Under the pieces are notes generated by a model. The model did not search any database, had not been told where the DNA came from, and was given only the letters and a program-made list of their open reading frames with translations. From IMG/VR virus record IMGVR_UViG_3300026184_000179, positions 1 through 34,621 of that record: a DNA stretch of 34,621 nt; one strand, given 5' to 3'. The translations under genes were made by a program, and so were the position numbers. This document shows, piece by piece, positions 3,389 to 23,338 of this stretch (position 1 is the first letter of the stretch; each line of letters starts with the position of its first letter). The DNA comes from a virus.

Positions 3389-3964
3389 ATGAATGATACT
3401 GCTAACAGCATGAATCATGCTGAGATGGTTAAAGTATTGGCCAAGCCTGGTGAGACTATACGTCAAACTTGTACTCCACACCAATGCCATATGATACATA
3501 TGGCAATCGGATTATCAGGAGAAGTAGGAGAGTTGATGGATGCTGTTATATTTGATCCATTAAACAAGGAAAATATACTTGAAGAACTTGGTGATATTGA
3601 ATTTTATTACCAAGGATTAGCACAAGAAATAACTGACTATAATGAAATATATTGTAGCTCAATCAGGCTCTATGCTCCACAAAGAATCTCAGTATCAGAA
3701 GCAATCATAAAATCAAGTATCAAAGCCAGTCAAATTCTTGATGTAATCAAAAAGTATTACATATATCAAAAGGATTATGATAAAAAATCGTTGGTTGCAT
3801 TTATGTGTAAGCTTCAATGTCTTCTTCAAGTTATAAGGGAATATAATGGATTCTCAAGAGAGGACACAAGAGTACACAACATATCAAAATTATCCATTCG
3901 ATATAAAAACTTTCAATATTCAGATGAAGCTGCACAGAATCGCGCGGATAAAGGTGAAGAATAA
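3389..3964 (+). CDS. MazG-like nucleotide pyrophosphohydrolase
   Basis: ATG 3389 follows AGGAGAG about nine bases upstream. Residues 41-75 carry the all-alpha NTP-pyrophosphatase signature: GLSGEVGEL (E45, E48) followed by EELGDIEFYY (E65, E66, D69), which coordinate magnesium in this superfamily. Such enzymes hydrolyse nucleoside triphosphates to monophosphates and pyrophosphate. Phage versions are thought to remove particular nucleotides or to modulate (p)ppGpp. The C-terminal half is helical, with no second copy of the motif. It lies between the SSB-like and nuclease genes, consistent with nucleotide-pool management during replication. The substrate cannot be read from sequence. Confidence 0.78.
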   Translation: MNDTANSMNHAEMVKVLAKPGETIRQTCTPHQCHMIHMAIGLSGEVGELMDAVIFDPLNKENILEELGDIEFYYQGLAQEITDYNEIYCSSIRLYAPQRISVSEAIIKSSIKASQILDVIKKYYIYQKDYDKKSLVAFMCKLQCLLQVIREYNGFSREDTRVHNISKLSIRYKNFQYSDEAAQNRADKGEE

Positions 3965-8732: not shown

Positions 8733-8748
8733 TGATTGCTCTTTCAAA

Positions 8749-8759
8749 ACACAGGAGAT
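8749..8759 (+). promoter_or_regulatory. ACACAGGAGAT ribosome-binding site of the 8766 gene
   Basis: ACACAGGAGAT precedes ATG 8766 with eight bases between AGGAG and the start, which decides against the upstream in-frame TTG at 8736. It is the same eleven-base word as at 2088-2098 and on the minus strand at 6977-6987. Confidence 0.65.
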
Positions 8760-8765
8760 AAAACG

Positions 8766-9575
8766 ATGATGTTCAAGATTAATGAGCAGTTCAAGGTTGT
8801 GTGCAAAGGTACTTCACTGAAGGCTGAAGAAGATGGAGATTTTCTTCTCCACGACAAGCTTCAGAAAGCAACCCTTCAGGAAGTTGCGAAAGCGAACAAT
8901 GTTGAAGTACCCAGGAAAGCCTCAGCCCCTGATCTGTTCAAGGCAATCGAAAAATCCTTCAACGAACGCGAGGACATACCAACCATGAACGATCAAACGG
9001 AAAACAAGGCTGAAGGCGCAGGTAAACCCAAGGCCAAGATCGACCAGAAGTACATCGACATCGTCAAGAAAGGCTTTGAAGCGAACAAGGATGCAGACGC
9101 TATCCAGGTTGACCTGGTTAAGGCCGGTCTGAAGTTCAAGCAGGCTGCTTCGATGTTCAAGAAAATCGCGGAGCAAGAAGGCTTCAAGATCAGCGCGAAG
9201 GAGCGCAACGAGAAAGCCAAGGAGCTGTTGGGCGATTTCGTACCCAAGAGCTGGGAAGATGTTGAAAAGTCTGTCAAGCACCTGACGGAAAACATCAAAG
9301 ATACTTCCGAACCCCAGGCGCTTGCTGTGCTTCGCAAGATTTGCAAGGATGCTGAAGTTGAGTTCCCCAAAAAGCCCAAGGGTGCCAAAGGCGGTGGCGG
9401 CCCGCGTGGCTTCAAGGCGGAAGTCTACAAGTGGATGCTGGAAAATCCGAAAGCAACCAAGAAGGAATTGGAGAAGTTCCTCACGGAAAACGGGCAGCGC
9501 CCCGTTTATATCCCGCATTACTGGGATATCATGGAGTTTGCACGGAAGTTCTCTGAAGTCTACAACAAGCAGTAA
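8766..9575 (+). CDS. Lysine-rich helical protein with SAP/HeH-like N-terminal motif
   Basis: The 269-residue product is very rich in Lys, Glu and Ala and almost entirely helical. Residues about 30-60 (KATLQEVAKANNVEVP then a second short helix) resemble a SAP or HeH helix-extension-helix, a DNA-binding or bridging motif. A basic, glycine-rich linker (about 208-222) precedes a helical C-terminal domain ending in an aromatic stretch with IPHYWDIMEF. Codon use is strikingly different from neighbours: AAG, CTG, ATC and GGC are favoured, suggesting high expression or separate origin. It has its own structured leader and a strong terminator, so it is an independent unit. A DNA-binding or host-takeover role is inference. 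Confidence 0.75.
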   Translation: MMFKINEQFKVVCKGTSLKAEEDGDFLLHDKLQKATLQEVAKANNVEVPRKASAPDLFKAIEKSFNEREDIPTMNDQTENKAEGAGKPKAKIDQKYIDIVKKGFEANKDADAIQVDLVKAGLKFKQAASMFKKIAEQEGFKISAKERNEKAKELLGDFVPKSWEDVEKSVKHLTENIKDTSEPQALAVLRKICKDAEVEFPKKPKGAKGGGGPRGFKAEVYKWMLENPKATKKELEKFLTENGQRPVYIPHYWDIMEFARKFSEVYNKQ

Positions 9576-9669: not shown

Positions 9670-9726
9670 ATGCTGGCCAACAAAATCCCTTCCCACCAAT
9701 CCCACAAAATTCTGGAGTCTCAATGA
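9670..9726 (+). CDS. Possible 18-aa leader peptide, coupled to the flavoprotein gene
   Basis: ATG 9670 follows AAAAGGAG (9657-9664) and encodes MLANKIPSHQSHKILESQ, ending at a TGA that overlaps the flavoprotein start (ATGA at 9723-9726). The good ribosome-binding site, right after a candidate -10 box, and the coupled overlap suggest translation. It may be a leader peptide that controls the operon, or a chance frame. The next gene also has its own GGAG site, so coupling is not essential. Confidence 0.4.
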   Translation: MLANKIPSHQSHKILESQ

Positions 9727-10667
9727 TAATTCTAGGCGCTGGTATGGCTGGCTGTTTAGTCGGTGCTATTAATAATGATGCTATCATATATGAGGCGCAA
9801 AATGAAATCCCTGATAATCACAATGCTGTTCTAAGGTTCAGGGAAGACAAGATAAGCAAGACCACAGGGATACCATTTAGAAAAGTAAAAGTAACAAAAA
9901 CAATATGGCATGATGGCAGAGAAGTCCAGCCATCACCAAGATTTTCAAATTGGTATTCAAAGAAGGTAACTGGTAAAATATCAGAAAGATCAATTGATAA
10001 TATTAATCCAGTTGAGCGTTTTATAGCCCCACCAGATTTCCATTTGATTCTTGCAGATATTTGCAGGAATAGAATCAAATTTGGCTACAAAGTATCAGAA
10101 ATACGCACTGATGGTATGATGTTTCATAACATAGAAGGTGCTTTTGATAGAAGTTTTACGCCAATCATTTCAACTATACCAATGCACATATTATCTGCTG
10201 TAACAAGAATACCTATAACAGCAGATTTTAATTTCAAAAATATTTTTATCACAAGATACAAAATAAAAAATTCAGACGTTTTCCAAACAATATATTACCC
10301 TGATCCACAATTCAAAATATATCGCGCCACTATAACTGGCGAAGATTTGATTGTTGAATCTATGGGCAATAATTTAGATGGGATAGAAGAAGCAATGCTG
10401 ATTGAAAGTCTTGGTTTAAAATCAAATGACTTGCAATTTGTTGCCCAAAAAGAACAGAAGTATGGTAAAATAAATCCAATAAATGATAATGTAAGAAAGA
10501 GATTCATGTTTGAAGCAACACACCAGCTAGCTATATATAGCCTTGGTCGTTTTGCTTGTTGGAGAAACATTCTGCTTGATGATGTTTATGATGACATCTT
10601 TAAAATAAAGAGAATGACTCAAAGTGATATTTACAATATAAAACTGGAGATGAGCAATGAAGGTTGA
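9723..10667 (+). CDS. FAD-dependent oxidoreductase (UGM/amine-oxidase-like fold)
   Basis: ATG 9723 follows GGAG (9714-9717). Residues 3-10 are a Rossmann FAD motif (G5, G7, G10 of GAGMAG), with an acidic residue E24 ending the second strand for ribose binding. The C-terminal region has YSLGRFACW followed by DD, the second FAD-contacting block seen in UDP-galactopyranose mutase and amine-oxidase-type flavoproteins. At 314 residues it is shorter than typical members, which suggests a reduced substrate domain. It overlaps the ThyX-like gene, which itself should use FAD, so the two probably act in one pathway. The substrate is unknown; a nucleobase or nucleotide oxidation step is inference. Confidence 0.7.
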   Translation: MIILGAGMAGCLVGAINNDAIIYEAQNEIPDNHNAVLRFREDKISKTTGIPFRKVKVTKTIWHDGREVQPSPRFSNWYSKKVTGKISERSIDNINPVERFIAPPDFHLILADICRNRIKFGYKVSEIRTDGMMFHNIEGAFDRSFTPIISTIPMHILSAVTRIPITADFNFKNIFITRYKIKNSDVFQTIYYPDPQFKIYRATITGEDLIVESMGNNLDGIEEAMLIESLGLKSNDLQFVAQKEQKYGKINPINDNVRKRFMFEATHQLAIYSLGRFACWRNILLDDVYDDIFKIKRMTQSDIYNIKLEMSNEG

Positions 10668-11436
10668 CTTAATTGATTACACAGGAGCAGGCCATAAATT
10701 CCCTGATCAATATGCAGGTAGATTGTTGGCCTATACAAAGAACACAAGATTGACTCAAGGAGCAGAGTCAAGAGATATGATTCAAGATTACTCATATGAA
10801 AAATTGATTGAGGAACTTGAATATATTGCTAACACAATCAGGAGTAGTTGGGAATTTATCAATTATACTTTTGAGATAAAAGGAGTAACAAGGGCATTCA
10901 CTCATCAGTTTGTTAGGACTAGGACAGCTAGTTTTGCTCAACAAACTATGCGTACTATTACTATTAAAGATATTCAAGTTTCAATCCCTGATTCAATAGT
11001 GCTTGGCAGTAGAGCATATGCATTATGGGATAGTGCTGTTGGTAAAATAAGGCACGTTTATGATCAACTGATACAAGAGGGAATACCACCAGAAGATGCT
11101 CGTGGTATTCTTCCAACCAATATAAAAACAAATATAATTGCTGGGATGAATTTAAGAACTCTTGCTGATCTTGTTGGTAAAAGGGATAACCCAAGAGCAC
11201 AAGGTGAGTATACTCACGTTGTAAAGCATATGTCAAACCTTGCCAGAGCAGTTCACCCATGGACTGAAAATTTCCTTTATCCAGATCGAACTAGCACACC
11301 TGAATTAAACAGGCTACTTTATTTGGTAAGAAATGAAGTTATTTCAAGAGGAATGAAAACAATTGGTGGCTATGATATCCCTGATCTTAAAACTATCTAT
11401 AAGGAATTGGATATGTTGAAAGGAGTATGGGGATGA
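10657..11436 (+). CDS. thyX: Divergent ThyX-like flavin-dependent thymidylate synthase homologue
   Basis: ATG 10657 follows GGAG and overlaps the flavoprotein gene. The 259-residue protein aligns along its length with ThyX: GVTRAFTHQFVRTR at 76-89, DARGILP at 148-153, MNLRTL at 164-169 and RAQGEY at 180-185. ThyX normally methylates dUMP using folate, FAD and NADPH. Key positions differ: the RHRX7S signature is here R87-T88-R89-X7-T97, the conserved His of the SFEH block is F67, and the Arg after AQxEI is T186. It may therefore use an altered substrate or one-carbon chemistry, or be less active. The fold assignment is firm, the reaction is not. Confidence 0.8.
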   Translation: MKVDLIDYTGAGHKFPDQYAGRLLAYTKNTRLTQGAESRDMIQDYSYEKLIEELEYIANTIRSSWEFINYTFEIKGVTRAFTHQFVRTRTASFAQQTMRTITIKDIQVSIPDSIVLGSRAYALWDSAVGKIRHVYDQLIQEGIPPEDARGILPTNIKTNIIAGMNLRTLADLVGKRDNPRAQGEYTHVVKHMSNLARAVHPWTENFLYPDRTSTPELNRLLYLVRNEVISRGMKTIGGYDIPDLKTIYKELDMLKGVWG

Positions 11437-11954
11437 CAGATGCCAAAGCTGTTATATTTGATATAGATCAAACGCTGGCAAATAATTTCCACAGGCATAA
11501 TCTTGCTGATAATAAGGATTGGAGTAAATTCCATGATGCCTGTTTGCTTGATGATCCAATAGTTCCTATGATGAAGCTATTGTGTATGTTTTATTATTCT
11601 GGTCATGAAGTTTTCTTATTAACAGCAAGGCCAGAAGCTGTAAGGATAAAAACTAACACTTGGCTAAAATCATATTCAGGGTTAGAGTTTGGCGCAAGAA
11701 ATTTATTGATGAGACGCAATGATGATGAAAGGCCAAGCTGTGAAGTAAAAGAGTCTATGTTACACAGAAAGATTTTAAAGCACTATGATATATTCTGTGC
11801 TTTTGAAGATAATGAAAATTGCATAGATATGTATACAAGGAATGGCATATTATGCATCAAGCCAATGATTAAGGGTGGTGATGTAACTCTTTGCAAAAAG
11901 TGTGGCAATTTAGTTAGAGATGAGGATGGAGATTATGTATTACAATCAAATTAA
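11433..11954 (+). CDS. HAD-family phosphatase resembling the polynucleotide kinase 3'-phosphatase domain
   Basis: ATG 11433 is preferred over ATG 11427 because the AGGAG at 11421-11425 is seven bases away; it overlaps the ThyX-like stop. Motif I is FDIDQTLA near residue 10, motif II LLTARPE near 67, and motif IV FEDNENCIDMY near 125. The layout, including the Arg-rich RRNDDERP segment and a Lys before the HxxI helix, resembles the phosphatase domain of T4 polynucleotide kinase; no kinase domain is attached. A CKKCGN pair near the C terminus may bind zinc. Likely substrates are DNA/RNA 3'-phosphates or nucleoside monophosphates. Either fits with the ligase downstream or the ThyX-like pathway upstream. 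Confidence 0.75.
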   Translation: MTDAKAVIFDIDQTLANNFHRHNLADNKDWSKFHDACLLDDPIVPMMKLLCMFYYSGHEVFLLTARPEAVRIKTNTWLKSYSGLEFGARNLLMRRNDDERPSCEVKESMLHRKILKHYDIFCAFEDNENCIDMYTRNGILCIKPMIKGGDVTLCKKCGNLVRDEDGDYVLQSN

Positions 11955-12453
11955 AACTCTTGAGGATTTCTTTTATGTTGGCCTTGATAGAGATGTTTCA
12001 AGAGTAATCCCTGATGTTAAAAAGCAACCCAGCATAATACTTAATGTTGGTGCTGGGGAAAAGGATATTGAGGGTGCTATTCCTCTTGATTACCCTGAGT
12101 ATGATTTTGACAAGGATGAAATACCTTATGTTGATAATTCTGTTGATCAGATACATGCTTATCATTTTTTGGAGCACTTACATAATCCTGTTTGGATGCT
12201 TCTTGAATTCCAAAGAGTTTTAAAGGTTGGTGGCCATGTTAATATCGTTGTGCCTTATTATAATGCACAAATAATGGCGCATGATCTTGATCACAAGCAT
12301 TCTTTTTGCGAGGATACATGGAAAATTTTATTCTCAAATCCATATTATAACAAGAATAAAGTTAGCTGGAGATTAGCAATTTATTTCAACATGATTATGG
12401 GTATAGTGGAGAGAAATTTATGCCTGTTCACTCAATTGGTAAAAAAGCTGTAG
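11935..12453 (+). CDS. Class I SAM-dependent methyltransferase-like protein
   Basis: ATG 11935 has GAGG nine bases upstream and overlaps the HAD gene by 20 bases; ATG 11926 is an alternative. Residues about 35-50 (IILNVGAGEKDI) are motif I of the Rossmann methyltransferase fold, with a DYPEYDF acidic loop, then HAYHFLEHLHNP (motif IV region) and VLKVGGHVNIVVPYY (motif V/VI). At 172 residues it is near the minimum for the fold and lacks a recognisable target-recognition domain, so it is not a typical DNA methylase. Acceptor unknown; its place between nucleotide genes suggests a nucleotide or small molecule, which is inference. Confidence 0.75.
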   Translation: MYYNQIKTLEDFFYVGLDRDVSRVIPDVKKQPSIILNVGAGEKDIEGAIPLDYPEYDFDKDEIPYVDNSVDQIHAYHFLEHLHNPVWMLLEFQRVLKVGGHVNIVVPYYNAQIMAHDLDHKHSFCEDTWKILFSNPYYNKNKVSWRLAIYFNMIMGIVERNLCLFTQLVKKL

Positions 12454-12746
12454 TACCAGAAGCACTTAGAAGTTGTGCTGAAATTTATGAAGAGCGCAAC
12501 AAGTTATATGGAGATAACTATAAACGCTTTGGTCAAGTTATGGGAATCTTATTCCCTAATGGTATTAATTTGGATAATGAAATGGAGTATAATAGATATG
12601 GAATATTTGTCCAAATGATATCAAAGATAATGCGTTACGCAGAAAACTGGGAGAAAGGCCACCCTGATTCTTTGGATGATCTTTCTGTATATTCACAAAT
12701 GCTTAATGAACTTGATGGCATTCTAAGAAAAGAAATGGAGAAATAA
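12420..12746 (+). CDS. All-alpha MazG/Nmad1 (DUF1599)-like protein
   Basis: ATG 12420 follows a GGAG site and lies inside the end of the methyltransferase gene. The 108-residue helical protein has the pattern ERNKLYGDNYKRFG, then RYGIFVQMISKIMRYAENW, then DSLDDLSVYSQML. This is typical of small all-alpha pyrophosphatase-like proteins annotated DUF1599 or Nmad1 (nucleotide modification associated domain 1). That family was named because it accompanies thymidylate synthase-like and base-modifying genes in phages, which is the arrangement here. The magnesium-binding acidic residues are only partly recognisable. Family call is from memory of the pattern. Confidence 0.65.
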   Translation: MPVHSIGKKAVVPEALRSCAEIYEERNKLYGDNYKRFGQVMGILFPNGINLDNEMEYNRYGIFVQMISKIMRYAENWEKGHPDSLDDLSVYSQMLNELDGILRKEMEK

Positions 12747-13312
12747 TGATTGTTTTTGACAATGAGACCACTGGCCTTTTAAAGCCTAGCCTAACAGATA
12801 TTTCTGAACAGCCTTATATAACTGAAATATGCTGTGTTAAAATCAACTTTGATCAAAACTCTGGAGAGTATGACTTTGTTGATGAAATGGAAACTCTTGT
12901 TAAGCCAGGCATGCCAATCCCTGAAGATTTAGAAGAAAAGATTGGCATAACAAATGAGATGGTTGAAGGTGCTCCGCCTTTCATAGAAATTTATGATCAT
13001 CTCTGTGATTTCTTTTTGGGCGAGCAAACTTTTGTTGCCCATAACCTTTCATTCGATGCCGGTTGTGTTAAATATGAATTGATGCGTCATGGTCTTGAAT
13101 TTAAATTCCCATGGCCAAAGAATTGGTTGTGTACTGTAGAGGCAACAAGGCATCTTGAAAATAAAAGACTGAGACTTGGTTACCTTCATGAATTGGCTAC
13201 AGGCAAACAACTTGAAGGTTGGCACAGAGCAAAGAATGATGTCTACGGACTCATCAGAATTTTAAATTGGATGGTTGATCAAAAAATCATTAATCCAGAG
13301 GCATATCCATGA
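12746..13312 (+). CDS. DEDDh 3'-5' exonuclease (DnaQ/epsilon-like)
   Basis: The start overlaps the previous stop as TAATG. Exo I is FDNETTG with D5 and E7, Exo II is HNLSFDAG with D104, and Exo III is HRAKNDV with H160 and D165, giving a complete DEDDh active site. The 188-residue length equals the catalytic core of the Pol III epsilon subunit. Three genes downstream lies a DnaE-type polymerase, so this is very likely its separately encoded proofreading exonuclease. There is no visible clamp-binding motif. Confidence 0.88.
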   Translation: MIVFDNETTGLLKPSLTDISEQPYITEICCVKINFDQNSGEYDFVDEMETLVKPGMPIPEDLEEKIGITNEMVEGAPPFIEIYDHLCDFFLGEQTFVAHNLSFDAGCVKYELMRHGLEFKFPWPKNWLCTVEATRHLENKRLRLGYLHELATGKQLEGWHRAKNDVYGLIRILNWMVDQKIINPEAYP

Positions 13313-13548: not shown

Positions 13549-13730
13549 GAGTTAAAATTGGCGATAAATGGCACAATTCAGATGATGAACCAATATGTAT
13601 TCAAATATCTGAATTAGAACAAAAACAAATTGGCAATATAGATCGTTCAGTTGCAACACAAGGAAAGTATGCAATATTCCCTGATGATTGGAGTCCAGAG
13701 CACTGTTTTTCTTGGATGAATGATTTATGA
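13545..13730 (+). CDS. Hypothetical protein, 61 aa
   Basis: ATGA overlaps join it to both the preceding gene and the polymerase gene, so its translation is probably coupled to the polymerase. The product is beta-rich with charged loops: MRVKIGDKWHNSDDEPICIQ at the start and a Trp-rich, acidic end (FPDDWSPEHCFSWMNDL). A small beta-sheet domain is likely. Family not recognised. Confidence 0.62.
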   Translation: MRVKIGDKWHNSDDEPICIQISELEQKQIGNIDRSVATQGKYAIFPDDWSPEHCFSWMNDL

Positions 13731-16543
13731 TTAACCTTGCATTACGCACTGAATATAGCTTCCAAAAAACTTTTGGACATCTAAATGATGTTGTTAAAGG
13801 TGATGAAAGTGCAGTTGGTATAGCTGATATTGGCAATACATTTGGTCACATAAGATTCCAAAAAATATGTGATGATAAGAAAGTCAAGCCAATTTTCGGA
13901 GTAAGGCTAGCAGTTGTTGAATCTGTATCTGAAAGAGTAAGAACAGAAGGCAGGCAGTATATTTTTCTAGCAAAAAATAACGATGGCTTATCTGAAATAT
14001 ATAGGCTAATAAAAACTGCTTATGAAAATTTCTATTATATACCAAGAGTTGGCCTGCTTGATGTTTGGAATTTAAGTGAAAATATATTTGTTCTTTCTGA
14101 TAACTTTGAGATACCAGAGAGAATAGATTATATTGCTTTATCACCAGGCATGAACCCAAAATGCTTAGAGTTTGATTTGCCTCGTGTTGCTATCAATAAT
14201 AATTACTATACAACGCCTCAAGATTATAAATATTATGAGGCATTGGCTAATGATAGGAATAGAGAAATACAAACATACTCTCAACACATATTATCAGAAG
14301 CTGAATTTTATTGGCTTTTCAAGGATAAATCTGCTATAGAAAATACATACAAGATAGCAGATGAATGTAATGCTAGAGTAAAAAAGGCTGAGATGGTAAA
14401 ATATAAAGGAGATTGGAATTTAAGGGATTTATGTTATCAAGGTGCTATTGAAAGAGGCGTTGATTTAAATGAGCCTATTTATTATGAAAGGCTTGAGAAA
14501 GAACTTGGGCTAATTGAAGATAAGAATTTTGGTGATTATTTTTTGATTACTTCAGAGATGATCAGGAAGGCAAAAAAGAAAATGCTTGTTGGCCCTAGTC
14601 GTGGTTCATCAGCTGGCTCTCTTGTTTGCTACTTAACTTATATAACAGAGATTGATCCAATCAAGTTTGGTTTAATCTTTGAACGTTTCGTTGATGTTAA
14701 TCGTTCTGATTTGCCTGATATTGATATTGACTTCCCTGATAAAAAGCGTGGCAAGGTCATCAAGGATTTGGAAAATACTTATGGCAAAGAGAATGTAACC
14801 CATATTGCAAATATCAATAGGTTGAAGGCCAAGTCTGCTATAGGTAGATTTGCACAAGCCATTAACATACCAGCATATGAAACAGAAGAAGTAAAAGATG
14901 CAATTATTGAACGTTCTGGCGGTGATGCTAGAGCAGCAATGTGCATTAAAGATACGCTAGAAACTACTGAAGTTGGGAAAGCTTTGATTGAAAAGTATCC
15001 TAATATGAAGTATGTTGAAATGTTTGAGGATCATGCTAGCCATGCTGGTATGCACGCTGCTGGTATTATTGTTTGTAACGAACCATTACATCATTATGGC
15101 GGAATCAATGTAAAAGATGATGTCATAATGATGGATAAGAAAGATGCTGAAGCTGTTAATCTTTTGAAAATTGATTGCCTTGGTCTTAGGACTTTATCAA
15201 TTTTAGAAGATTGTGCTAAACATGCTGGCTTTGATTTCCATGATTTCTATGAATTGCCTCTTGATGATAAAAAGGTTTTTGATGTTTTCAACCAAAGTCG
15301 TTTCCATGGCATATTTCAATTTGAAGGATATTCTCTTCAAGCAATTACAAAGGGCATGGGCGTTCATAGGTTTGAAGATATTGTTGCTATTACTTCTTTG
15401 TCCCGGCCTGGTGCTCTTCACTCTGGTGGCGCTAATCGCTATGTCAAACTTAGCAATCAGGAAAATGAGCCGACTTATTATGGCGATATACACAAAAGTA
15501 TCGTTGGTGAAAGTTTTGGCATCGTTATTTACCAAGAGCAAATGATGAATATTGCTAGGCTTATCGGCAATCTCAGTTGGGGTGATGTTGATAAGCTTAG
15601 GAGAGCAGCAAGTAAGAGTCTTGGTGATGAATTCTTTAGTCAATATAAAGATAAATTCATGACTGGTGCAGTTGATGAAAATAATGTTTCTGTTGAAAAT
15701 GCAGAAGCTTTATGGAATGATATTTGCCATTGTGGCTCTTGGATATTCAATAAGTCTCATGCTGTTTCTTATAGTCTTATATCATATTGGACTGCTTGGT
15801 GTAAAGCTTATCACCCATTAGCTTTTACAGCAGCAAATCTTAATAACGCAAGGGATGAAGAAACATCAATCAAGATATTAAGGGATGCTGTAAAATATGA
15901 TGGCATTGAATATACCGCCATTGATCCTGATGAATCTGATGTTGATTGGACCATAAAGGATGGCAAGCTTCTTGGTGGTCTCACAACTATAAAAGGAATA
16001 GGGGTTAGCAAGGCAAAGGAAATAGTGAGGCGTAGAAATAAAGGAGTTGAGCAAACTCCAAGCATTTATAAAAAGCTCATGAATCCTGAAACTAAGTTTA
16101 ACATTCTATTCCCTTGTGAATATCATTGGGGTGATATATACAGAAATTATAGAATGTATGGCCTTGATTTGCCACCAGTCCCAATTGAGATGATACAAGG
16201 TGCTGGGAATTATATTTTTATTGGATTACTTTCTGATAAAAACTTACGTGATTTAAATGAATATCAAAGCGTTGTTAAAAGAGGTGGCAAGATAATTGAA
16301 AATGATACCTTGTTTTTAAACTTGGTTTTTGAAGATGATACTGATAGTATTATGACTACAATAAACCGGTGGAATTTTGAAAGAATTGGTAGAGAAATAA
16401 CTGAAAAAGGTGTTGTTGGCAAACATTGGTATTTAATAAAAGGTACAATCAAAAACCCAGAATGGCGTCGCGTTGATATATCAGAGATAATAAACTTAAA
16501 CGAATACATCGGTTTAAAAGAGGTTGACAATGCTGTTAATTGA
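13727..16543 (+). CDS. dnaE: DnaE-type DNA polymerase III alpha subunit, inactive PHP domain
   Basis: The 938-residue C-family polymerase starts in an ATGA overlap. Residues 1 to about 200 form a PHP domain whose metal histidines are gone: the HSxYS site reads TEYSF, and the DHG site reads DIG. The palm has VGPSRGSSAGS near 287 and the catalytic aspartates D333 and D335 (PDIDIDFPD) and D483 (KIDCLGLRT). A helix-hairpin-helix (TIKGIGVSKAKEI) lies near 755 and an OB-like domain follows. Compared with E. coli DnaE (1160 residues), the C-terminal tau-binding region is missing. With the adjacent exonuclease it should replicate phage DNA; clamp and loader genes were not seen here. Confidence 0.92.
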   Translation: MINLALRTEYSFQKTFGHLNDVVKGDESAVGIADIGNTFGHIRFQKICDDKKVKPIFGVRLAVVESVSERVRTEGRQYIFLAKNNDGLSEIYRLIKTAYENFYYIPRVGLLDVWNLSENIFVLSDNFEIPERIDYIALSPGMNPKCLEFDLPRVAINNNYYTTPQDYKYYEALANDRNREIQTYSQHILSEAEFYWLFKDKSAIENTYKIADECNARVKKAEMVKYKGDWNLRDLCYQGAIERGVDLNEPIYYERLEKELGLIEDKNFGDYFLITSEMIRKAKKKMLVGPSRGSSAGSLVCYLTYITEIDPIKFGLIFERFVDVNRSDLPDIDIDFPDKKRGKVIKDLENTYGKENVTHIANINRLKAKSAIGRFAQAINIPAYETEEVKDAIIERSGGDARAAMCIKDTLETTEVGKALIEKYPNMKYVEMFEDHASHAGMHAAGIIVCNEPLHHYGGINVKDDVIMMDKKDAEAVNLLKIDCLGLRTLSILEDCAKHAGFDFHDFYELPLDDKKVFDVFNQSRFHGIFQFEGYSLQAITKGMGVHRFEDIVAITSLSRPGALHSGGANRYVKLSNQENEPTYYGDIHKSIVGESFGIVIYQEQMMNIARLIGNLSWGDVDKLRRAASKSLGDEFFSQYKDKFMTGAVDENNVSVENAEALWNDICHCGSWIFNKSHAVSYSLISYWTAWCKAYHPLAFTAANLNNARDEETSIKILRDAVKYDGIEYTAIDPDESDVDWTIKDGKLLGGLTTIKGIGVSKAKEIVRRRNKGVEQTPSIYKKLMNPETKFNILFPCEYHWGDIYRNYRMYGLDLPPVPIEMIQGAGNYIFIGLLSDKNLRDLNEYQSVVKRGGKIIENDTLFLNLVFEDDTDSIMTTINRWNFERIGREITEKGVVGKHWYLIKGTIKNPEWRRVDISEIINLNEYIGLKEVDNAVN

Positions 16544-20559: not shown

Positions 20560-21240
20560 TTATCTCCAATTTTCCCTTACCCATTCAAAATGAGTAAATT
20601 TTGCAGGATCAAAACGACGACCATAAAGGCCAGCTATTTTTATATCACTTGATATTTCATTAGCATGCATCTCCTTGTGTTCTTTCATGCTATATATTCC
20701 ATCTGATTCATCCCAATATTTGCATGGATGAACATATTTGGATATTATTGCCTGATCCGTGCCCAGCCAGCCTTGGCTTCTTTTTTGTTGTATCTCTCTT
20801 TCTGGACACTCTTTAAACTTCTCATAAACTTCATTTAACACTCCATTTTTAAAAAGCATGAATGAAGTATTATACATAAAGCCTCTGGAACACTTGCTAG
20901 GACACTTCCATATTTTAAAATCATCATCAGTTATCATATTTGTTATATTTTTGATGATGATTATATCAATATCAATTTGTAATATTTTATCACCAAATAT
21001 ACTGCTGTTGGCAGATGATAGAATGTTAAGCCTTCTATAATTGAATTTTGTTTGGCCAAATTCTTCCCATATTGGCATTGTATTTATCTTTGATATAAAG
21101 TCTTCAGATTCAGGCTTATCAGTTATACAGAAGAAATCAAAATCAATATCAAGATTTCTTTTGACCATGTTATAACTTTTATTGACATGGTCAATAGAAT
21201 AAAGATCACCCCAAAGCCAAGTGACTACTGAAAGAGTCAT
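20560..21240 (-). CDS. GT-A-type glycosyltransferase
   Basis: The 226-residue protein begins LSVVTWLWGDLY, a typical nucleotide-sugar-binding start of GT8-like enzymes, and carries a DxD motif in LQIDIDIIIIKNI near residue 95, followed by NTSFMLFKNG and a GTDQAII block near 180 (the GxDQ of GT8-like proteins). The fold and metal motif support a retaining GT-A transferase. Sugar donor and acceptor are unknown. It overlaps the GT2-methyltransferase gene (ATGA), so the glycosyltransferases are one co-translated set. Confidence 0.78.
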   Translation of the reverse strand: MTLSVVTWLWGDLYSIDHVNKSYNMVKRNLDIDFDFFCITDKPESEDFISKINTMPIWEEFGQTKFNYRRLNILSSANSSIFGDKILQIDIDIIIIKNITNMITDDDFKIWKCPSKCSRGFMYNTSFMLFKNGVLNEVYEKFKECPEREIQQKRSQGWLGTDQAIISKYVHPCKYWDESDGIYSMKEHKEMHANEISSDIKIAGLYGRRFDPAKFTHFEWVRENWR

Positions 21241-22523
21241 ACATCTACCTTTATAATTGAATGCTTTTCTCTATGCACTAAATGATTATGTATTGAATAT
21301 TTCCTTATATAAAAATGCTCTGATATGAAAGACAAATAATCACTGGCGCTTCTAAAACACATATGGTGAGTGTTATTAAAGCTATCATGAGTATTTTCAT
21401 ATAAGAATATTTGGAAATCTTGTTCTTTTATTTTACTTAATTTTCTGAAAATCTCGCCAACTATATAATCACAATTGTGCTGCAAAACATTTGATGTAAA
21501 GAAAAGATCAAAATCAAAACCTAAATCATACACAAATGGATCAGACAATAATTTATACCAATAACCAGGATTATTTTCTGCTGCCATAAGTATAAATTTT
21601 TCAGTTATATCAACACCAAGATATTTTGACTTATCAAATAGCCTACTAAATTTACCTACACCACATCCATAATCTAAAGTACAAAGACCAACATCTAAAA
21701 ATTGCTTAATAAAATCTGTTTTAGATTTCATTATTGAATCCTGTATACCCCTATTTTTACCAGCATACCCAACTGCTAAATCATTTTGCTGAGAGGCTCT
21801 GTTTGACCAATAATCTTTAACCTTATCAACATTTAATCCGCCTTGATATTTGTTTCTTGGGTCTTGGTTGTATGATATATTATTTCTCCATGTAGAATTA
21901 TACCTTTCAGCATTATGTCTTACTAAATTTGGAACAACAAGATATTTTACTTTGCCATTTTGCCTATTCTTTCTATGGTATATATTTACATCAATTTTAC
22001 TACCAATGCAATTATTACCAATCATTGTTGGTGTAGGGAAATTATGTTGGCTTTCCATAGGGAACCATTTTTGCCAGGTAGATTTTTTGGCCAACAATTG
22101 TGTGAATCTTGATGAGTGTTTTATTTTATATCCACTGCCTGATCTAAATGATTTATGGTCCGGCGCATCATATCCTGTTATAAAATCAATGTCATAATTT
22201 GAATATTCCATAAGCTTTTCAAGCCAACCATATTCAAATTCAACATCATCTTGAAATTCACAAACCCATAAACTATTGCACAAAGATATTGCTTGATTAA
22301 ACCTTGGTATTATTCCTATCCTTTCATTTTGATTTGGCAATAATTTTATTTTTGGGAATTGTGTAATTATTGATTCTATATATTCTTTTGTTCCATCTGT
22401 TGATCCATCATTTGATATAATTATTTGATTGATTTTATCAAGATCAGTATTTGCAAAAAAACTATGCATAGTTCTTTTGAAAAGACTTTCTCTATTATAT
22501 GTTGTTATAATTACATCAAACAT
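21237..22523 (-). CDS. Fusion of GT2-family glycosyltransferase and SAM methyltransferase
   Basis: Residues 1 to about 220 are a GT2 domain: FDVIITTYNRESLF, ISNDGSTDGT near 40, and EFQDDVEF (DxD) near 93. Residues about 275-428 are a class I methyltransferase: LDYGCGVGKFSRLF (motif I), GVDIT acidic loop, then FFTSNVLQH. The single 428-residue chain would transfer a sugar and methylate it or its carrier, a combination found in surface-polysaccharide synthesis. In a phage it may modify tail fibres, DNA or host surface glycans. It overlaps both neighbours. Confidence 0.82.
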   Translation of the reverse strand: MFDVIITTYNRESLFKRTMHSFFANTDLDKINQIIISNDGSTDGTKEYIESIITQFPKIKLLPNQNERIGIIPRFNQAISLCNSLWVCEFQDDVEFEYGWLEKLMEYSNYDIDFITGYDAPDHKSFRSGSGYKIKHSSRFTQLLAKKSTWQKWFPMESQHNFPTPTMIGNNCIGSKIDVNIYHRKNRQNGKVKYLVVPNLVRHNAERYNSTWRNNISYNQDPRNKYQGGLNVDKVKDYWSNRASQQNDLAVGYAGKNRGIQDSIMKSKTDFIKQFLDVGLCTLDYGCGVGKFSRLFDKSKYLGVDITEKFILMAAENNPGYWYKLLSDPFVYDLGFDFDLFFTSNVLQHNCDYIVGEIFRKLSKIKEQDFQIFLYENTHDSFNNTHHMCFRSASDYLSFISEHFYIRKYSIHNHLVHREKHSIIKVDV

Positions 22524-23338
22524 TTCAAAGCCTCATTCAAAATAATATCTGGTATTATTTCTCTACATGCCCACCAACAATTCAAATAATTATCAACCCA
22601 ATATTTTCTTCCATTAAGTTGGCATGGCTGGCAAGACAAACCTTGTTTTATGACTTTTGAGTGCTTATGAAAATCCTTATCATAATTTTTATCAGTATCA
22701 GTCATAGTAAATATGACTATATTTTTCACACCAAGAACATTTGCTGCATGATAAAAACCAGTATCATTACTTATCAAAAGTTTACAATTCTTTATTAACC
22801 CAATAGTTTCTTTTAAGCCAATATTTGTTCTATCAATAGTATGCTTTATCCACTCTCCTTTTACTCCTATCGATGCAACAGAATATCCATAATCTGATAA
22901 GTGCGATGCTACTTGCCAATAATATGGATATGATTTTACTTCCCAATCATTTTTATTATACCTCTTGTTATATCCATCACATATTAAAACATCGAATGAT
23001 TCAGATGCTTCTTCATATCCACAAAATCCTATTTTGTGATATTTTTTAGGAGATTCACAACCAACTAGTTTTAAATTTCTTTCAACTTCAGATTCTTTAC
23101 CACCCTTTTTAAAAGTGGTTGGACTAGAACATTTAAATAAATGTCTTGAATTATTTATTTGATGACCAGCAACCAACAAATCTTTATCTCCATAAACACA
23201 CTTAGTAAAATGCTCATACTCTTTAGAGCAAACAACAACAACCCTTTTATAGATACTTCTCAAATATCTATATGCAGGAGTGGTTTGGATAATGTTCCCA
23301 AATCCATTGCCAACTCTATAAAAAGCAGTATCAGCCAT
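22511..23338 (-). CDS. GT9-like (heptosyltransferase-type) glycosyltransferase
   Basis: The 275-residue product begins with YRVGNGFGNIIQTTPAYR, like the GDxxxxTP start of heptosyltransferases, and contains LLISNDTGFYHAANVLG near residue 190, which corresponds to the NDSGPMHLAAALG nucleotide-sugar-binding block of GT9. A Cys-rich stretch near the end (CQPCQL, CWWAC) is unusual for the family. Heptosyltransferases build lipopolysaccharide core, so it may alter host LPS or decorate a phage protein. Start at 23338 overlaps the upstream small gene. Confidence 0.78.
   Translation of the reverse strand: MADTAFYRVGNGFGNIIQTTPAYRYLRSIYKRVVVVCSKEYEHFTKCVYGDKDLLVAGHQINNSRHLFKCSSPTTFKKGGKESEVERNLKLVGCESPKKYHKIGFCGYEEASESFDVLICDGYNKRYNKNDWEVKSYPYYWQVASHLSDYGYSVASIGVKGEWIKHTIDRTNIGLKETIGLIKNCKLLISNDTGFYHAANVLGVKNIVIFTMTDTDKNYDKDFHKHSKVIKQGLSCQPCQLNGRKYWVDNYLNCWWACREIIPDIILNEALKCLM

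Follow-up and report, generated by a model that had tools for sequence, protein, structure and literature searches.

Does a viral ThyX homologue that lacks several signature residues of its family still make ordinary thymidylate, or has it been turned to another product? This question is raised by an open reading frame in an IMG/VR virus record of 34,621 bases, which is called the window here. In the ThyX reaction, a methylene group is transferred from folate to the N5 of the flavin and from there to C5 of dUMP, followed by reduction.

A ThyX homologue with a changed active site

The open reading frame (10657-11436, plus strand) starts with ATG, is intact, and encodes a protein of 259 amino acids. 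The initial annotation of this DNA had called it a ThyX homologue, and all subsequent comparisons agree with this. The protein matched the Pfam family Thy1 (PF02511; 6.4e-33, 114.6 bits with a cut-off of 24.8) instead of the ThyA family (PF00303), scored just over the cut-off of the NCBIfam thyX equivalog model TIGR02170 (90.3 versus 87.9 bits), and falls in PHROG 85, thymidylate synthase. An AlphaFold model, built with 18 sequences from the window and from viral contigs as input, reached a mean pLDDT of 81.5 and a pTM of 0.69, with lower confidence for residues 81-110, which form the active-site loop, and with the part from approximately residue 215 to the C-terminus lying outside most structural matches. 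The best Foldseek match of this model was the ThyX of Thermotoga maritima (E 3e-10), and VIA-align gave a Z of 16.2 and an rmsd of 2.8 Å over 189 residues. By fold and profile, the protein therefore belongs to the ThyX superfamily. It shares approximately 24% identity with the T. maritima enzyme (FDTS; 1o26, 7ndz, and 8ren), from which it differs by a C-terminal extension of approximately 45 residues and, as outlined below, by its active site and by the gene with which it is paired.

The residues were compared using T. maritima numbering, anchored at R78 of the RHR motif. The RHRX7S signature is absent, and reads RTRX7T in the window protein (R87, T88, R89, and T97), as had been noticed at the outset. 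T88 stands for H79 and T97 for S88, and three further residues are replaced: I61 is found at the position of H53, F67 at that of H59, and T100 at that of Y91. The last of these, a catalytic residue described as strictly conserved, was missing from the initial annotation. That annotation had also pointed to F67 as the replacement of the conserved His of the FEH block; the letter and its place were right, but the His of this block is His59, whereas the residue that has been studied is His53, six residues further upstream, and neither His is present in the window protein. Retained are Q84 (Q75), R87 (R78), R89 (R80), S92 (S83), and R99 (R90), and in the C-terminal half R149 (R147), N165 (N163), R167 (R165), and R176 (R174), which include the dUMP-binding and FAD-site arginines. 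The HQFVR, ARGILP, and NLR blocks are present as first described. On its RHRX7S, His53/His59, and Tyr91 features, the predicted protein is thus not a canonical ThyX. Two other candidate losses were dismissed. T186, which follows AQGEY in the window protein, had been taken for a lost signature Arg after AQxEI, but T. maritima has a Gln there and the clade to which the window protein belongs has R, Q, or T. The change from H178 to R180 concerns a position at which canonical ThyX proteins vary freely.

The functions of these residues have been studied in the T. maritima enzyme. In the reduced enzyme, His53 stacks on the flavin and forms hydrogen bonds with Tyr91 and Asn85, and in the folate complex it stacks on the pterin (PMC11940539). 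A role in the departure of water from the flavin carbinolamine has been proposed for Ser88 and Tyr91, and changes of Tyr91 slow the reaction 100- to 1000-fold (PMC8316439, PMC11940539). Arg174 activates dUMP (PMC8316439). The initial annotation had assumed that both the His and the Arg equivalents of the active site were affected. In the alignment, His53 and His59 are both lost, but the dUMP-binding arginines are all intact. The retained residues Q84, R87, R89, R99, R149, R167, and R176 point to a nucleotide and flavin pocket that is probably unchanged. Since the losses lie on the side of folate and methylene transfer, and the side of dUMP and flavin is kept, it seems likelier that the carbon donor, the reaction, or the product has changed than that the nucleotide has.

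The variant defines a large clade

A tblastn search with the window ThyX matched 661 phage records, 334 of which cover at least 80% of the query. We aligned 32 proteins of the window type, consisting of 8 from the window and named phages (with Cronobacter, Vibrio, Rhizobium, Xanthomonas, Pseudomonas, Escherichia, and Aeromonas as hosts), 19 from viral contigs, and 5 from contigs binned with bacterial MAGs. Position 53 is Ile and position 59 Phe in all 32. Position 91 is V, T, A, I, or M and in none of the 32 aromatic, position 79 is T, N, or S in 31, and position 88 is Thr in 30. The dUMP- and FAD-contacting residues R78, R80, R90, R147, R165, R174, and Q75 are kept in every one of these proteins. 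In a set of 25 canonical ThyX proteins from bacteria, archaea, and phages, H53, H59, H79, and S88 are invariant, and position 91 is Tyr in 22 and Phe in 3.

The ThyX-like proteins of Gordonia, Mycobacterium, Microbacterium, and Streptomyces phages belong to the same clade. They are likewise encoded near a divergent UGM-like gene and DnaE, and lack H53, H59, and H79 (n = 5), but unlike the window protein they are 310-446 amino acids long, have F or A at position 91, and keep S88. His53 and His59 are thus absent from all 37 clade members (32 of the window type and 5 from actinophages), and the changes at His53, His59, and Tyr91 extend to a protein of a 203-kb Rhizobium phage. A maximum-likelihood analysis of 66 sequences placed the 35 module-linked ThyX proteins in one clade with support of 99/93, which was recovered in 100% of the bootstrap trees. 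Judged from these alignments, the active-site losses are features of a clade, and neither a quirk of one sequence nor decay. The intact reading frame, together with variant residues that are invariant across a deep clade, rules out a pseudogene. The original suggestion of altered specificity rather than decay therefore holds for its second half, since the variant has been maintained throughout a large clade, together with all dUMP-binding arginines and constant gene neighbours; altered specificity itself is plausible.

Two other deviating groups were encountered. Three Aenigmatarchaeota contigs (L048, L049, and L050) encode ThyX-like proteins of approximately 300 amino acids without His53 and His59, in which R165 is replaced by Glu and Tyr91 is kept, and which form a separate divergent branch. 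A bacterial ThyX-like group (L052-L055, L058-L060, and L062) has Gln for Arg90, Asp for Gln180, and one extra residue after RHR.

A flavoenzyme partner and nucleotide-processing neighbours

Directly upstream of thyX, and overlapping it by 11 nucleotides, lies a gene (9723-10667, plus strand) for a 314-amino-acid FAD enzyme resembling UDP-galactopyranose mutase (UGM). The protein was assigned to PHROG 4828 (phrog_4828; 7.5e-78, profile E 5.6e-117), and a Pfam search matched it to no family. With its model (pLDDT 81.6), UDP-galactopyranose mutases matched first, with a Z of 18.8 over 286 residues, closely followed by protoporphyrinogen and amine oxidases (Z 15-17). UDP-galactopyranose mutases (4dsg, 3ukk, and 5vwu) resemble the partner in its predicted fold, share the GxGxxG FAD motif and a C-terminal GRxxxW-type motif with it, and are 390-510 amino acids long compared to its approximately 310. 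A literature search found no description of the ThyX variant or of its UGM-like partner.

In each of the 32 loci of the window type, a homologue of the partner lies close to thyX, and none was found near canonical thyX in the canonical loci that were fetched with their flanks. In the named-phage collection, the numbers of records with thyX and with the UGM-like gene are equal for Pseudomonas (291/291) and Escherichia phages (27/27), as tallied per genus and not matched record by record. Counted in the same way, ThyX and a diverged oxidoreductase are also equally frequent in phages of Gordonia (46/46), Microbacterium (36/36), and Arthrobacter (2/2). The window-type UGM-like sequence profile gave no match in actinophage genomes; the relation of their oxidoreductase to the partner is based on a profile-profile comparison (hhalign, E 1.8e-6) and on common STxP and GRxxxW motifs. 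For Streptomyces and some Mycobacterium phages the counts were uneven, suggesting an oxidoreductase without ThyX, but this was not borne out in the two phages examined, Streptomyces phage Gibson and mycobacteriophage Onyinye, which each encode both genes.

Downstream, on the same strand, the end of thyX is overlapped by a gene for a HAD phosphatase resembling the phosphatase domain of PNKP (11427-11954; Pfam HAD_PNKP 6.9e-19, phrog_415), a candidate nucleotidase. It is followed by a methyltransferase gene identified in the Pfam and PHROG searches (11920-12453; phrog_6636), which is an optional member of the cluster, and by a gene for a small DUF6378-like protein (12420-12746), which aligns with the C-terminal part of phrog_4889 and is probably of the NTP pyrophosphohydrolase type; relatives of this protein match DUF6378, with the domain fused to a HAD domain. 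Next are a DnaQ-type 3'-5' exonuclease (12746-13312; Pfam RNase_T 9e-20) and a DnaE-type DNA polymerase III alpha subunit (13727-16543; Pfam, phrog_405 1e-220), the usual downstream neighbour of the cluster. The downstream genes are a nucleotide-processing set beside the phage polymerase. Homologues of the HAD phosphatase, downstream of thyX, and of DnaE occur in most clade loci and in actinophages, and in some relatives a short-chain dehydrogenase and a glyoxalase-fold protein are encoded as well. PADLOC matched no defence family in the cluster.

The methyltransferase, which also occurs at 3388-3918 of L072, is 41.8% identical to gp63 of mycobacteriophage Gumball; in the window and in Gumball it lies inside the same gene cluster. 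Phage records with PHROG 6636 number 58 for Pseudomonas, 45 for Gordonia, and 20 for Mycobacterium, and the family also occurs in Salmonella phage L076, where no thyX is annotated nearby. Upstream of the gene pair, the window encodes a lysine-rich protein (8736-9575, plus strand), with a similarly placed homologue in Cronobacter phage Ss1, Vibrio phage VA-RY-3, and L030. The replication region contains a further nucleotide-pool enzyme, a MazG-like pyrophosphatase (3389-3964, plus strand).

A possible flavin route to a modified pyrimidine

The loss of presumed donor-handling residues, combined with a constant second gene for a flavin enzyme, suggests that these phages may produce a modified DNA base in place of ordinary thymine. 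What is seen across the clade is the loss of folate and methylene-transfer residues, the retention of the dUMP-binding arginines, and a strict gene pairing; the altered chemistry, the identity of the product, the order of the steps, and the modified base in the DNA are all four what we infer. Our main reading, for which we put the chances at about even, is that the variant is a flavin-dependent one-carbon enzyme acting on C5 of dUMP that has been repurposed for a modified pyrimidine. It would be an active FAD enzyme that binds dUMP, or a close pyrimidine nucleotide, without carrying out the standard reaction from methylenetetrahydrofolate to dTMP. As the variant has neither the His that stacks on folate nor Tyr91 as an acid, and carries Thr in place of Ser88, the carbon unit would be delivered or finished differently, and another one-carbon group might be installed at C5, the simplest being that of 5-hydroxymethyl-dUMP. 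The UGM-like flavoenzyme may act on the product of ThyX, or supply the carbon, and the HAD phosphatase and the MazG/DUF6378-like proteins may deplete the competing nucleotides (dTMP or dTTP), as in SPO1-type phages. The phage DnaE polymerase would then incorporate the modified nucleotide, resulting in modified thymine in the phage DNA and resistance to host restriction. Hydroxymethylases of the SPO1 type and T4 gp42 make a C5-hydroxymethyl pyrimidine nucleotide for phage DNA, and nucleotidases and pyrophosphatases remove the normal nucleotide; these enzymes resemble the window ThyX in its proposed role, but have the ThyA fold. To our knowledge, C5-modified phage thymines start from ThyA-type enzymes, and a start from a ThyX-type enzyme would, if true, represent a second, flavin-based route.

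Several observations weigh against the main reading and leave room for its main rival, which we regard as doubtful but quite conceivable: an ordinary flavin-dependent dTMP synthase that boosts dTMP for phage replication, with Thr97 serving for Ser88, hydrophobic residues for the two His, and another group for Tyr91. The intact dUMP pocket and the TIGR02170 score above cut-off make ordinary dTMP synthesis by such a rearranged active site possible, and the protein keeps all dUMP- and FAD-contacting arginines and matches the ThyX fold (Z 16). T. maritima H53A and S88A mutants still fold and crystallise, natural ThyX proteins with Phe at position 91 exist, and a single common descent would by itself also keep neighbours constant. 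Moreover, the variant is the sole thymidylate-synthase-like gene in each named phage tested: among 12 related named phage genomes, no member of the ThyA family (PF00303) was found, nor was a second ThyX in these phages or the window. A dUTPase was not matched in the window or in 11 of the 12 phages. In the Rhizobium phage, the variant thyX lies near ribonucleotide reductase and dUTPase genes, the usual context of dTMP synthesis. A mere rearrangement is at odds with the joint loss of H53, H59, H79, and Y91 in a pattern kept over a deep clade, and with the tie of this clade to a second flavoenzyme that is absent from canonical ThyX loci. In addition, E. coli has its own ThyA, as found in a search control, thus a Wifcevirus phage, which infects this host, is not strictly in need of a thymidylate synthase.

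The same residues bear on two other explanations. That the variant applies otherwise standard chemistry to another pyrimidine nucleotide (UMP, dCMP, or a triphosphate) is unlikely in our view. There is a precedent in PolB, the UMP/dUMP methylase of polyoxin biosynthesis (4p5a and 4p5b), a solved ThyX homologue among the structural matches (Z 15-16) that serves a modified nucleoside and not DNA thymine, but PolB keeps HGSPFEH (H53 and H59), RHR, S88, and Y91 in the alignment, so a change of nucleotide alone needs no such losses, and the residues that hold dUMP in T. maritima are intact in the window type. A catalytically dead protein, present as a subunit of the UGM-like flavoenzyme to bind nucleotides or to regulate it, would fit the loss of several catalytic residues, the strict pairing, and the overlapping reading frames in the window; we consider this very improbable, as it is difficult to see why all substrate-binding arginines would be invariant over deep divergence if the protein neither catalysed a reaction nor bound nucleotides tightly.

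If the main reading is extended to the whole viral ThyX branch, then this branch and the UGM-like flavoenzyme might constitute a flavin-based pathway to a modified pyrimidine in DNA that is distinct from the ThyA-based pathways known so far. Such a pathway would explain the restriction resistance of Wifcevirus, and PB1-like therapy phages and many actinophages may use it as well. We propose this tentatively, at somewhat less than even chances. Wifcevirus (Escherichia phages) carries the gene pair, and four Wifcevirus isolates resisted nearly all restriction systems tested by a mechanism that is not known, but were still sensitive to EcoP1_I, which weighs against the main reading (PMC11990801). 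In early mapping studies, restriction enzymes did cut the DNA of PB1-like phages (PMC12390725), thus a modification, if present in these phages, leaves some enzymes able to cut. The same paper on Pbunavirus suggested DNA hypermodification as one route past host defences and cites a preprint by Yee et al. on nucleases targeting hypermodified phage genomes, which, to judge from its citation in PMC12390725, may already report modification of Pbunavirus DNA. These observations are leads, and not proof that the cluster makes a modification.

The ThyX/UGM-like cluster offers a concrete candidate for why Wifcevirus escapes restriction systems. Many isolates exist of the phages concerned, among them PB1-like phages of Pseudomonas that serve in therapy, Wifcevirus of E. 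coli, and more than 100 actinophages, and the clade provides a natural set of active-site variants for probing His53 and Tyr91 in ThyX chemistry. Elsewhere in the window, near the tail genes, a run of three glycosyltransferase-like genes is present on the minus strand (20560-23338), encoding a family 2 enzyme fused to a methyltransferase-like part, a family 9 enzyme, and a PHROG 1962 glycosyltransferase, the target of which could be a base, a tail protein, or the host surface.
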